Of a stretch of 64,000 nt of DNA, positions 19,378-28,938 are shown piece by piece. This stretch comes from Paremcibacter congregatus. Its GTDB lineage: Bacteria; Pseudomonadota; Alphaproteobacteria; Sphingomonadales; Emcibacteraceae. The notes beneath the pieces were generated by a model. It had not been told where the DNA came from and did no database searches. It worked only from the letters and a program-made list of their open reading frames with translations. The position numbers and the translations under genes were made by a program. Where the stretch lies: assembly GCF_006385135.1 (NCBI RefSeq), contig NZ_CP041025.1:248001-312000 (forward strand). The letters are read 5' to 3'. How positions within the stretch are numbered: position 1 is the first letter of the stretch; the number at the start of each line of letters is the position of its first letter.

Positions 19378-19443
19378 AGGGGGATGGAAACAATATTCAT
19401 AAATTTTTATGTTAATCTTTACGAGGTTTTTACAGGTTTTTCG

Positions 19444-19449
19444 TATAAT
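19444..19449 (+). promoter_or_regulatory. Candidate -10 element before the riboswitch
   Basis: A consensus TATAAT lies about 45 bases before the riboswitch core. No good -35 lies at 17 bases. TTTACG at 19418-19423 is 20 bases away, so an activator or a non-standard promoter is possible. Confidence 0.4.
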
Positions 19450-19487
19450 GAGGTCCAGTAGTGATAATCCGAGTATAGATTATTCTG

Positions 19488-19571
19488 TGACAATCGCAAA
19501 CCGTCGGTAACGGCGAGACGCAAAGCTTCTGGTCCTGGTGTATGCCATTAAGGGATAGCAGAGCTACCGTA
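19488..19571 (+). promoter_or_regulatory. Cyclic-di-GMP-I (GEMM) riboswitch
   Basis: All family landmarks occur in order. GCAAACC is at 19496-19502. It leads into a hairpin capped by a GNRA tetraloop (GUAA, 19507-19510). The signature GACGCAAAGC follows at 19517-19526, and then the pyrimidine-rich receptor arm UUCUGGUCC. The closing hairpin GGGAUAGC/GCUACC (19552-19568) has a bulged A. This is the fold of the GEMM-I aptamer. The ribosome site AAGGAG (19571-19576) abuts its 3' end and the ATG is 15 bases away, so control of translation start is the likely mechanism. Whether c-di-GMP turns the gene on or off cannot be read. Confidence 0.85.
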
Positions 19572-19584
19572 AGGAGACAAAAAA

Positions 19585-19761
19585 ATGGCCCATACGAATA
19601 CAGTGAATCCCGATGCCGATTCTTCGCATAATTTCGAATATAAAAAAGAACTGGCTTTTCAGCTGGTCAAACGGTTTGGTATGACGGCCGCCCGTCAGAC
19701 CTGCATCGCCAATAAATGGGACGATGTCCTCAAGGCGGTGGATTCTGTCCGTCCACATTAA
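19585..19761 (+). CDS. Riboswitch-controlled 58-residue protein
   Basis: I recognise no family. The protein begins MAHTNTVNPDADSSHNFEY and continues as two predicted helices, KKELAFQLVKRFGMTAARQ and IANKWDDVLKAVDSV. There is one Cys at position 40 and no signal peptide or membrane segment. The FGMTAARQ stretch resembles a small helix-turn-helix, but this is not firm. The ribosome site AAGGAG is ideal (8 bases before the ATG). A c-di-GMP-I riboswitch ends just before it, so the product is probably tied to the choice between motility and surface life. Confidence 0.8.
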   Translation: MAHTNTVNPDADSSHNFEYKKELAFQLVKRFGMTAARQTCIANKWDDVLKAVDSVRPH

Positions 19762-19853
19762 GCGTCCGGATTATCTGATCGTTTTTCACGGGTTGTGAAG
19801 AACCAGAAGCCGTCCTTGCAGGGCGGTCCGGCGACCACATTGGCGTCTATTAT

Positions 19854-19906
19854 AAAGAGCAGATTTGACATCATTCTACCGAGAGATGATGTCAAATCTG
19901 CTCTTT
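19854..19906. terminator. Perfect 21-pair inverted repeat, likely bidirectional terminator
   Basis: Arms 19854-19874 and 19886-19906 are exact reverse complements around an 11-base loop. The arms begin with AAAGAGCAG and end with CTGCTCTTT, giving A and T runs at both ends, which suits termination in both directions. It lies 92 bases after the 58-residue gene. The length and perfection are more than a terminator needs, so a mobile hairpin element is an alternative. Confidence 0.55.
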
Positions 19907-20138
19907 TGCATTTCAGGGGGGAAATGGACATGGTTTTGTCTTCTTTATCTGTAATTGTTCCGCGACTCATTCCGGTAGCGCTATATATTTCATGCAAGAT
20001 TCGGTAAGCACCATATAATTTCTGTGAAATTCGTTTTTGTAGAAGAATATTTTTCTTCTTAAATATTTTGCTTTTCAAAAGTTACTCATTTCTCTTGCTC
20101 ATTCTCTAAGCCACAGTAATCACGTAACTTTTTTAAGG

Positions 20139-20164
20139 GTGTGTAATGTTATTTTATTACGCAC
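20139..20164. repeat. Nine-pair inverted repeat upstream of the TonB operon
   Basis: GTGTGTAAT (20139-20147) and ATTACGCAC (20156-20164) pair with one G-T across an 8-base loop. It could be an operator or an RNA hairpin; the role is unknown. Confidence 0.35.
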
Positions 20165-20422
20165 TAAAAATTGAAATTCGTGTCAATGGAAAGTTTTTTT
20201 TTATTTGAGGTCAGGGAGCCCTTGTAAATTACACAGAAACTAGGATAGTGTTCCATCAGTCCAGCTGTCCGGGTTCTATCTTATAAGAAGAATGTGGGAT
20301 ATGGCCGGATGGGATAGTGAGGCTGACAGGCGCAAAATATAATAATCCTCGACTGAGATCGAGGGTGCTGTGTCTGGCTCACGAAATTTGAAATGTTAAT
20401 GTACTCATAGGGGAGTAGCTTG

Positions 20423-20563
20423 ATGGTCAAAATTAGTTTAAGTTTAAAGAAGTTTTTCTTTATGGCTTTAAGCTATGCTCATCTTAAAATTTTAAAGCTA
20501 TTTTTCTATTCATTAACGGCCATTTTAAATGGCGCAAACTTAACAACTCAAAAAAAGCTGTAG
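20423..20563 (+). CDS. Possible 46-residue leader ORF
   Basis: An ATG at 20423 follows a strong ribosome site (AGGGGAG, 20409-20415). It encodes a hydrophobic, Lys/Phe/Leu-rich peptide beginning MVKISLSLKKFFFMALSY. The stop lies 8 bases before the ATG of the first TonB-operon gene and overlaps that gene's ribosome site (AGGAAG), so translation of the two could be coupled. Base composition is much richer in A and T than the genes that follow. It may be a leader peptide or chance. Confidence 0.35.
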   Translation: MVKISLSLKKFFFMALSYAHLKILKLFFYSLTAILNGANLTTQKKL

Positions 20564-20571
20564 GAAGAATA

Positions 20572-25924: not shown

Positions 25925-27142
25925 ATGACATTACTTGCACATATCATGATTTCGACGACCTATGCTCTCATCGCAACGCTTGTAGGTTTTGTGCTGCCGC
26001 GGATTTTCGTTTCACTTGATACGACAGAAGGACTGATAGCCGCGAGTGTGGTTTTTCTCATCGGGGTGCAGCTGCATTGCATGTATATCTGGAAATTTGG
26101 CAAAACAGATACCGTTAACCGGCTGCTTGCGCTTCATCAGGATTATCAGGTGACGATTGATCGCCTGGAGGAAAACAAACGCGAACAGGAAGCGTTGCGC
26201 GAACAGGTCTATAAAGCCGGGAATGAAAAAGACAAAGAGATCATTTCCGAAATGCATGTCCTGCAGACGCTGTTGAACCAGGTGATCGAAAAATCTGGTA
26301 AATCCCTGGAGCACCGGGTGGATCAGGCGCATGCTCTCGAAGGGGCGAAACAGTCCGGCAAGAAGATCTTTCAGCCAGATCTGCAAGAGCTGGAACGGAG
26401 CGACGGCGAAGTCCTGAATATCATGCATCATGCGTTGGAAGGAAACCGGGTTGATCTGTATCTGCAGCCGATCGTCGCCCTGCCGTCCCGCCGGGTGGTG
26501 CATTATGAATCCTATAGCCGGGTGCGGGACGATGAGGATAATGTTATCTTTCCATCGCAATATCTGCGCCTGGCCGAAGACAGCGGGCTTGTCGGCACGC
26601 TGGACAATCTTTTGCTGTTCCGCTGTATTCAGGTTATCCGTCGTCTGGGGCCGCGTCGTCCGGACCTGCGGTTTTTCTGCAATATCTCCTCCATATCGCT
26701 GAATGATAAGGAATTTTTCCCGCAGTTCGTTGACTTTATGATGGAAAACAGCGAATTGTCGGATCGGTTGGTGTTTGAATTCGCTCAGAAGGATGTCTTG
26801 CGACAATCTTCTGGCGTTCGGCGCAGCCTGGCCAATCTGGGCCGCCGGGGCTTCCGATTCTCCATGGATCAGGTGATGGACATGAATGTTGATCTGGCGG
26901 ATCTGGGGTCACGGTATTTCCGCTATGTGAAGGTGGATGTGGCGATGATTCTGGAACAGAATCTTGATATCCATCCGGACGACCTTAAAGAATCCTTCGC
27001 CCGCTATGATCTGGATCTGATTGTCGAGAAGATCGAAACCGACCAATCGATTGTCGAGATACTTGATTTCGGAATCGATTACGGTCAGGGCTTTCTGTTT
27101 GGGGAACCGCGGCTGAGTAGTGATACCCGTCTGGACCTTTAA
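25925..27142 (+). CDS. TipF-like membrane protein with degenerate EAL domain
   Basis: This 405-residue protein has two N-terminal membrane helices (about residues 8-30 and 36-56), a coiled coil (about 75-130) and a C-terminal EAL domain (about 165-400). The domain is altered. EAL is YES (Glu195 kept) and the N-x-S Asn253 is kept. Glu285 is in FEF, and DDFG is replaced by MDQV (314-317). Lys336 of K-V-D and Gln388 of QGF remain. It is therefore unlikely to be an active c-di-GMP phosphodiesterase. The layout matches TipF of Caulobacter, which binds c-di-GMP and directs flagellar assembly. It faces the cheY-cheZ operon. Confidence 0.8.
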   Translation: MTLLAHIMISTTYALIATLVGFVLPRIFVSLDTTEGLIAASVVFLIGVQLHCMYIWKFGKTDTVNRLLALHQDYQVTIDRLEENKREQEALREQVYKAGNEKDKEIISEMHVLQTLLNQVIEKSGKSLEHRVDQAHALEGAKQSGKKIFQPDLQELERSDGEVLNIMHHALEGNRVDLYLQPIVALPSRRVVHYESYSRVRDDEDNVIFPSQYLRLAEDSGLVGTLDNLLLFRCIQVIRRLGPRRPDLRFFCNISSISLNDKEFFPQFVDFMMENSELSDRLVFEFAQKDVLRQSSGVRRSLANLGRRGFRFSMDQVMDMNVDLADLGSRYFRYVKVDVAMILEQNLDIHPDDLKESFARYDLDLIVEKIETDQSIVEILDFGIDYGQGFLFGEPRLSSDTRLDL

Positions 27143-27228: not shown

Positions 27229-28344
27229 TTAGGAAAACAATGCGTCGATATCTGACTGGGTGGTTTTCTCTTCCGCTTTCGGGCTGAGTCCGGCGGCGGC
27301 GTCTTCTTCATATTCGACGGGCTTTGGCAGTTTGGCCTTTGACTTGTCAGCGGCCCGGGCCTCGGCTTTGCGTTTCTTCGCCTGCTCGATGAGATTAAGT
27401 TCTTTTTCTTCTGGCGGTTCCGGTTCATCAGCAGCTTTGGTTTCAGGTTGCACTTCTTCCGGGGAAGCCGCGACAGGACTTTCCGGTTCCAGTTCAGAAA
27501 CCGCCGGCTCGTCTGTGTCCGCGGGGGCGCCATCAAACATAAAGTCGATGTCATCCGCACTGGAATTTTCTGTGACGTCTTCCTGGTCCGCTGTGGGGGC
27601 AGCAGGGGCGTCTTCAACGACGTCCTCTGGGGCGCTCTCCGCAGCGGTTTCTGGAGCTTCCTCGGCAACGGGGGCTTCTTCGGGGCTTTCCGAAGAGCTA
27701 TCGTCGTCCTGCGTACCGTTCAGCAAGCTGTCGATTTCACTCTGGTCAATGCCTTCCCCTTCCAGGGCGGGACCATTGAGCAGGGCTTCATCCTCTGATC
27801 TCTCATCAGCGGGTTTGGCCTTGTCGCCTTCGATAACCCCGAGAATATTGATCAGTTTGGCGACGCGGTCTTCCACATGTTCAAGTGTGCTGACCACCTT
27901 GCTGATTCTCTGGCCTGTGATGTCCTGGAACGAACAGGCTTCAAAGATCTGCATAACGGCATCATTGATGGTTCCGGTATAGGCGTCCATGTCGCTGGGG
28001 TCAGCTTCCATGATGCGCTCTGCGGACTCCATGATGGAATTTGTCGCGCTCTCGGTTTGTTCGACGATCGCTTCGAGTTCCAGTCCGGCCCGGGGGATTT
28101 TTGCGGAGTCACTATGTTCTGGCGACAGAGAGGCAATTTCCTGACGAGCATCATCCATATAGTCGGCGAGAGACTGACATTCCTGATATATGGTCAGGTC
28201 GATCGACTTGAAATAGCTTTCAAGGGATCGCATCAAAATCTCTGTCAGCGCCGCGACATCAGGCAGGGAGACCGAATGATGGTCGCCATTGCGCAGGCGG
28301 TCCACCAGGGGACCGATATGCTCCGGTAAAAGCCCGTGACCCAT
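27229..28344 (-). CDS. cheZ: CheZ-family phosphatase with long acidic tail
   Basis: This 371-residue protein has a helical CheZ core in residues 1-170. The catalytic pair lies in FQDITGQR (Asp141 and Gln145, corresponding to Asp143 and Gln147 of the E. coli enzyme). CheZ removes the phosphate from CheY~P. After residue 175 a low-complexity Glu/Asp/Ala/Pro tail of about 195 residues carries three short related motifs. They are DQSEIDSLLNG (200-210), ADDIDFMFDG (263-272) and TQSDIDALFS at the extreme C-terminus. They resemble the CheY-binding peptides of FliM and CheZ. Its ATG shares one base with the cheY stop. Confidence 0.82.
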   Translation of the reverse strand: MGHGLLPEHIGPLVDRLRNGDHHSVSLPDVAALTEILMRSLESYFKSIDLTIYQECQSLADYMDDARQEIASLSPEHSDSAKIPRAGLELEAIVEQTESATNSIMESAERIMEADPSDMDAYTGTINDAVMQIFEACSFQDITGQRISKVVSTLEHVEDRVAKLINILGVIEGDKAKPADERSEDEALLNGPALEGEGIDQSEIDSLLNGTQDDDSSSESPEEAPVAEEAPETAAESAPEDVVEDAPAAPTADQEDVTENSSADDIDFMFDGAPADTDEPAVSELEPESPVAASPEEVQPETKAADEPEPPEEKELNLIEQAKKRKAEARAADKSKAKLPKPVEYEEDAAAGLSPKAEEKTTQSDIDALFS

Positions 28345-28730
28345 TAGAATTCTCCAAGTACGCTGGACAGCTTCTGCTTCAGGGTTGCCGCGTTGAAAGG
28401 CTTCACAATATAATTATTCACGCCAGCTTTTTTGGCCGCGATCACATTGTCGGTTTTGGACTCCGCCGTGACCATGATGAAAGGTGTCTTTTTCAGCATT
28501 TCGTCAGCGCGGACTTCTTTGAGCAACTCATAACCGGTCATGGGTTCCATATTCCAGTCAGAAATAATGATGCCGTAATTTTTAGACCGCATTTTATTCA
28601 AGGCTTCGGCGCCGTCACTGGCTTCATCTACGTTGTTGAAACCGAGTTGTTTCAACAGATTCCGAATAATCCGCAACATTGTTTTATAATCGTCCACGAT
28701 CAGGACGGGCATTGCTTTATCTACAGCCAT
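28344..28730 (-). CDS. cheY: CheY-type single-domain response regulator
   Basis: This 128-residue receiver domain without output has the usual residues: acidic pair in LIVDDYKTM, phosphoacceptor Asp in IIISDWNMEPM, Thr in MVTAES and Lys in VKPFNAATL. It should bind the flagellar switch when phosphorylated. I chose the ATG at 28730 (MAVDKAMPVLIVDD); a longer reading upstream lacks conservation signs. The next gene, the CheZ-like phosphatase, overlaps by one base, so signal and terminator are made together. Confidence 0.92.
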   Translation of the reverse strand: MAVDKAMPVLIVDDYKTMLRIIRNLLKQLGFNNVDEASDGAEALNKMRSKNYGIIISDWNMEPMTGYELLKEVRADEMLKKTPFIMVTAESKTDNVIAAKKAGVNNYIVKPFNAATLKQKLSSVLGEF

Positions 28731-28938
28731 AATTTTTCCGTTTACATAACTAAAATACATTGTTTTCGGCAAGGTGGGGTTAACCACGTTTTCCTTGCAA
28801 CTATTTGAAGCTATCCCAATCCTTTAAAAAAAAGGTTAATGACCTGACCATGATGTGGTTTTTTTATTTGCTTTATCGCAGCGAGGGCTTTACCCAAGAT
28901 CAGAAGTGAATTTATCAAGGTAAATTGAAGGGTGTTGT

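Follow-up and report, generated by a model that had tools for sequence, protein, structure and literature searches.

The window, a stretch of 64,000 nucleotides of Paremcibacter congregatus DNA, comes from marine Alphaproteobacteria (Emcibacter and relatives) that have received little study and carries a riboswitch aptamer just ahead of a small gene. The features considered here are, in window positions:

19418–19433, + strand: CtrA-like box TTTACGAGGTTTTTAC (TTwA-N7-TTwAC), a pattern upstream of the riboswitch, putative binding site
19444–19449, + strand: probable −10 hexamer TATAAT, read from the sequence
19485–19571, + strand: c-di-GMP-I (GEMM-I) aptamer, RF01051
19495, + strand: selectivity base (equivalent of Vc2 G20, aligned to model position 11), C in the window, with G, A or C at this place in the orthologues
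19507–19510, + strand: GUAA tetraloop (GNRA), read in the sequence
19517–19526, + strand: GACGCAAAGC, read in the sequence
19522, + strand: A47 equivalent, which stacks between the ligand bases
19567, + strand: C92 equivalent, which pairs with the ligand
19571–19576, + strand: Shine-Dalgarno sequence AAGGAG, abutting the aptamer 3′ end and conserved in the alignment
19585–19761, + strand: 58-codon gene of an uncharacterised protein family with a predicted three-helix fold
19854–19906, + strand: strong hairpin with a T-rich 3′ arm, probable intrinsic terminator
25925–27142, + strand: tipF-like EAL protein gene (flagellar c-di-GMP receptor family), a conserved neighbour

The initial annotation had reported a GEMM-I riboswitch at this site, and the observation is confirmed. 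The aptamer matches RF01051 over the full length of the model (1–87) with 55.2 bits (E = 4.6e-08 for the window, cmscan against Rfam), so that the covariance-model check proposed there came out above the gathering score of 35 bits. RF01051 is also the sole Rfam family above threshold within the window, and a search of the whole 4.19 Mb genome returned no second copy over the cut-off, the next-best place reaching 18 bits. The landmarks described from the letters alone (tetraloop, GACGCAAAGC and a closing hairpin, which corresponds to P3) occur in that order and at those places, and the ribosome site indeed directly abuts the aptamer, whose end lies 13 nt before the ATG at 19585. The feature itself was rightly located; its start, however, is at 19485 and not at 19488.

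Helices P2 and P3 are backed by covariation among relatives. Standard pairs make up 98.2% of these helices in 22 related, aligned loci, while slid control alignments of the same loci are less than 50% paired. Two-sided (compensatory) changes affect 6 of the 18 pairs in P2 and P3 (mean of 3.0 in shuffles, with 5 of 500 as high, a count that is not a probability as the 22 loci are related). At the base of P2, a compensated pair is found in genome G005 (U-A, U-A, A-U), and a C-A mismatch in the window and in genome G013. The aptamer of the window has the lowest bit score in its genus.

The riboswitch and the gene behind it travel together. Both are present in 15 of the 16 Emcibacter genomes (the window's plus 15), the same 15 carrying the two elements, with the aptamer ending approximately 13 nt before the gene; the sole exception is a 67%-complete genome having neither. 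The pair also occurs in seven genomes from six further genera and four families, two of them from other genera of the same family (G016, G017) and five from other families of the order (G033, G040, G046, G051, G044). The link between riboswitch and 58-residue gene drawn in the initial annotation is thus borne out by a pair conserved over seven genera. On a broader scale, the protein family was found in 69 and the riboswitch in 28 of 248 sampled genomes of the order; in the class sample of 289 genomes, the corresponding numbers are 14 and 26 (about 9%), which makes the earlier statement that GEMM-I is uncommon in Alphaproteobacteria a fair one. None of the class-sample riboswitches whose next gene was read has the small gene downstream, and in most genomes of genus g5 the gene sits at the corresponding site and the riboswitch is absent. 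We found no publication joining the phrase "c-di-GMP-I riboswitch" with Alphaproteobacteria. Inspection by eye showed GEMM-I elements repeatedly placed before genes for ParA-like ATPases or transglutaminase-like cysteine proteases in other alphaproteobacterial families (L092, L096, L097, L098, L104, L116; L101, L107, L111) and, in the order, before a FlgC-like flagellar rod gene (L037, in G016) and a subtilisin-like protease gene (L038, in G034).

Orthologues of the 58-residue protein, with 67–79% identity, are encoded in 14 of the 15 other genomes of the genus. Variable columns over codons 16–56 are distributed as 8, 2 and 39 at the first, second and third codon positions, and across the 58-codon ORF dN is 0.15–0.21 with dS above 1.3 or saturated. 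This codon-position pattern and these rates indicate that the ORF at 19585–19761 is real, translated and under strong purifying selection. Nine residues (L23, A24, G32, A36, C40, N43, W45, V48 and L49) are invariant in a 13-member family. The AlphaFold2 model predicts helices at residues 9–31, 33–43 and 46–55, with a mean pLDDT of 76.6, about 90 over residues 21–50 and a low-confidence N-terminus; a fold search with this model gave nothing at E ≤ 0.001, its hits being limited to weak resemblances among three-helix folds (Z no higher than 4.8). Searches of Pfam, NCBIfam, PHROGs and the PDB yielded no passing relative, in agreement with the initial view that the regulated gene lacks a known domain. 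Judged from its sequence, the protein forms an undescribed conserved family. A phage (PHROGs) and a plasmid origin of the gene were both considered and rejected, as no match was obtained. The same genome encodes a paralogue, without a riboswitch, at C1:3491761–3491901 (L072). The further suggestion that the small protein is a new effector of c-di-GMP signalling is unproven: what is established is that its gene has the aptamer on the transcript.

The gene is flanked by a peptidase M19 gene and by a DUF3450-ExbB-ExbB-ExbD-TonB-TPR cluster, upstream of which it lies, and the tipF-like gene comes after this cluster. The gene order is largely kept across families; in G040 and G046 the tipF-like orthologue is found near the small gene, and the DUF3450 cluster was not seen between them. 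The product of 25925–27142 is best classed as TipF-like only, given that the NCBIfam TipF model (NF051880), the best of all models and full-length on this protein (residues 1–398), scores 300.9 bits against a cut-off of 600. In Caulobacter, TipF initiates the assembly of the flagellum and is stabilised when it binds c-di-GMP, and CtrA degradation is also driven by c-di-GMP (PMC10212136). A connection of the small gene with c-di-GMP and the flagellum through this neighbour is plausible. Further along, after the tipF-like gene, CheZ-like chemotaxis phosphatase and CheY-like receiver genes were recognised by eye (27229–28787, − strand). Between the small gene and DUF3450 (19762–20571) is a spacer with no evident gene, of approximately 700–900 nt, whose length is kept across genera; spacers of like length occupy the same place in L005, L008, L015, L018 and L024.

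Upstream of the riboswitch, 21 of the 22 loci have a box that departs from TTwA-N7-TTwAC by no more than one base, where first-order Markov resamples of these upstream regions average 3.8 such loci and never exceed 9 (the 22 loci are related and hence not independent). The box resembles the Caulobacter CtrA consensus, and CtrA control of the small gene may be envisaged. A CtrA-like promoter with the TATAAT hexamer would start the transcript near 19456. A promoter pattern scan of the riboswitch strand returned no matching promoter. On the 3′ side, the mRNA is probably monocistronic because the gene is followed by the strong hairpin at 19854–19906 (−33.8 kcal/mol, z −7.5 versus shuffles). The near-perfect stem of this hairpin has over 20 pairs, exceeding the usual length of a terminator, and its T-rich arm is unique within the window.

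According to the Rfam alignment, the window keeps the Vc2 contacts G14, G21, C46, A47 and C92; the residue names are those of PMC9049102 and PMC4744006, and their placing on the Rfam model is our own. A47, C92 and the C46-G21 pair are invariant in the 22 loci. A changed selectivity base, the C at the equivalent of Vc2 G20, had escaped the initial annotation. The window therefore has neither the G of the c-di-GMP-preferring GEMM-Ia nor the A that is the mark of the cGAMP-preferring GEMM-Ib. Of the 15 loci of the genus, 7 have A at this position, 6 have G and 2 have C, while the other listed contacts are invariant, and the tree of neighbouring proteins requires at least four changes. Elsewhere in the class and order, G was found in 24 and A in 1 of about 25 GEMM-I loci, a tally in which two loci may be one site and some loci were unreadable by pattern. 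The literature on the effect of a C at position 20 is mixed. In Cd1, c-di-GMP binding was not greatly altered by A or C at the equivalent of G20, and the position is described as a selectivity factor, not a hard filter (PMC9262584); on the other hand, Vc2 no longer bound c-di-GMP when G20 was replaced by U, and the corresponding Vc1 mutant bound it less well (PMC4744006). As the window has C at this position, its ligand is probably, though not certainly, c-di-GMP: the class named in the initial annotation is right, whereas the ligand implied by the name is not established.

This variation raises the question of whether the aptamer has drifted towards another or broader ligand, the C20 or A20 versions in Emcibacter sensing 3′,3′-cGAMP, or cGAMP together with c-di-GMP. 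The frequency of changes within the genus, set against the near-constant G outside it, and the A20 typical of GEMM-Ib are in line with this idea, as is a GGDEF protein from the window's genome that carries Thr at the Hypr selectivity position, its G005 orthologue carrying Ser there. This position is Ser in Hypr enzymes and Asp or Glu in canonical cyclases. However, Thr is found across much of the order, including G20 genomes and the riboswitch-less genus g5, and therefore does not track the riboswitch; a Hypr GGDEF as the explanation of A20 or C20 was accordingly rejected. The description of position 20 as a selectivity factor and not a hard filter (PMC9262584) also speaks against a shift, and the occurrence of different bases in closely related orthologues ahead of the same gene fits neutral tolerance as well. 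We consider such a shift unlikely. A stronger form of the same proposal, in which the Emcibacter riboswitches constitute a natural G/A/C series with ligand preference having switched between c-di-GMP and a further cyclic dinucleotide, C20 being a new specificity type, all controlling a new protein family, appears quite improbable. The Thr-bearing protein (G000:C1:389494–389952; L148/L169) has an intact GGDEF motif and is conserved across much of the order, with Ser or Gly in some of its orthologues (L170–L198).

Alternatively, the window copy could be decaying and respond weakly or not at all, the promoter alone regulating the gene as in g5. The C at position 20, the P2 mismatch and the lowest score of the genus would suit a decaying element, and g5 keeps the gene without it; yet P3 and the remaining contact residues are preserved, and the element is kept in every genome of the genus but the incomplete one. 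Such decay is, in our opinion, very doubtful.

The best explanation is that a GEMM-I riboswitch, on a probably single-gene mRNA, lets a cyclic dinucleotide, most likely c-di-GMP, control translation initiation of the small gene; we assign it a probability of roughly two in three. The ligand would bind the P1/P2/P3 junction and stabilise P1, and because the 3′ strand of P1 lies immediately next to the Shine-Dalgarno sequence, binding would govern initiation. Control at the level of translation is likely because the 13 nt between aptamer and ATG contain no terminator-like site. In this model CtrA would activate the gene while the cell is motile, and an increase in c-di-GMP would alter its translation at the transition; the gene may have a role in the motile/sessile switch. 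Speaking for the explanation are the RF01051 score, the P2/P3 covariation, the recurrence of the pair in other genera, the intact contacts, the conserved Shine-Dalgarno sequence, the CtrA-like boxes, the TipF-like neighbour, the selection on the ORF and the Cd1 result with A or C. Against this explanation stand the C at position 20 in view of the effect of U in Vc2 and Vc1, the P2 C-A mismatch, the lowest score in the genus, the g5 genomes with the gene alone and the null results of the folding and pairing analyses that follow.

As for the direction of the response, we lean slightly, on weak grounds, towards repression (OFF), since in several relatives pairing between the Shine-Dalgarno sequence and the 5′ flank is feasible. 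This pairing is suggestive in G001, G003, G007, G016, G017 and G033 and reaches p of about 0.02 when summed over loci, which are not independent; in the window it is not better than in shuffles (p = 0.86). Thermodynamic folding with and without the aptamer fold gave no consistent difference in Shine-Dalgarno exposure. Conversely, c-di-GMP could act as an ON switch by freeing the Shine-Dalgarno sequence from an alternative fold, as might be expected from V. cholerae Vc1, which is an ON switch (PMC4744006), and from the predicted ensemble of the window, which has the Shine-Dalgarno sequence paired to about one half. A conserved alternative helix hiding this sequence was not found, and we regard the ON variant as a tentative option.

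Repression or activation aside, the locus points to an undescribed family of small proteins: its mRNA leader ties it to cyclic-dinucleotide signalling, and its neighbourhood to TipF-like proteins and flagella. Furthermore, orthologous riboswitches that share one target gene and differ at a ligand-tuning base make specificity drift directly measurable.

Compared with known systems, the element shares aptamer class and bacterial class with the alphaproteobacterial GEMM-I elements found upstream of genes for autotransporters, ParA-like proteins or transglutaminase-like proteases; these, however, retain G20, and the small gene follows none of those that were read. The GEMM-Ib riboswitches of Geobacter, which respond to 3′,3′-cGAMP, have the same fold and the A20 seen in seven Emcibacter orthologues, but the window has C instead of A, and its genome contains one Thr candidate only, with no serine-type Hypr GGDEF seen. 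The Vc2 and Vc1 riboswitches of Vibrio cholerae (RF01051) resemble the window in the full aptamer, the GNRA tetraloop, GACGCAAAGC and the contacts G14, G21, C46, A47 and C92, and differ from it in having G at position 20 and in their targets, the window's gene belonging to an undescribed protein family. The element thus belongs to a riboswitch class already known; it is set apart by a new target gene, itself conserved, and by its unusual selectivity base.
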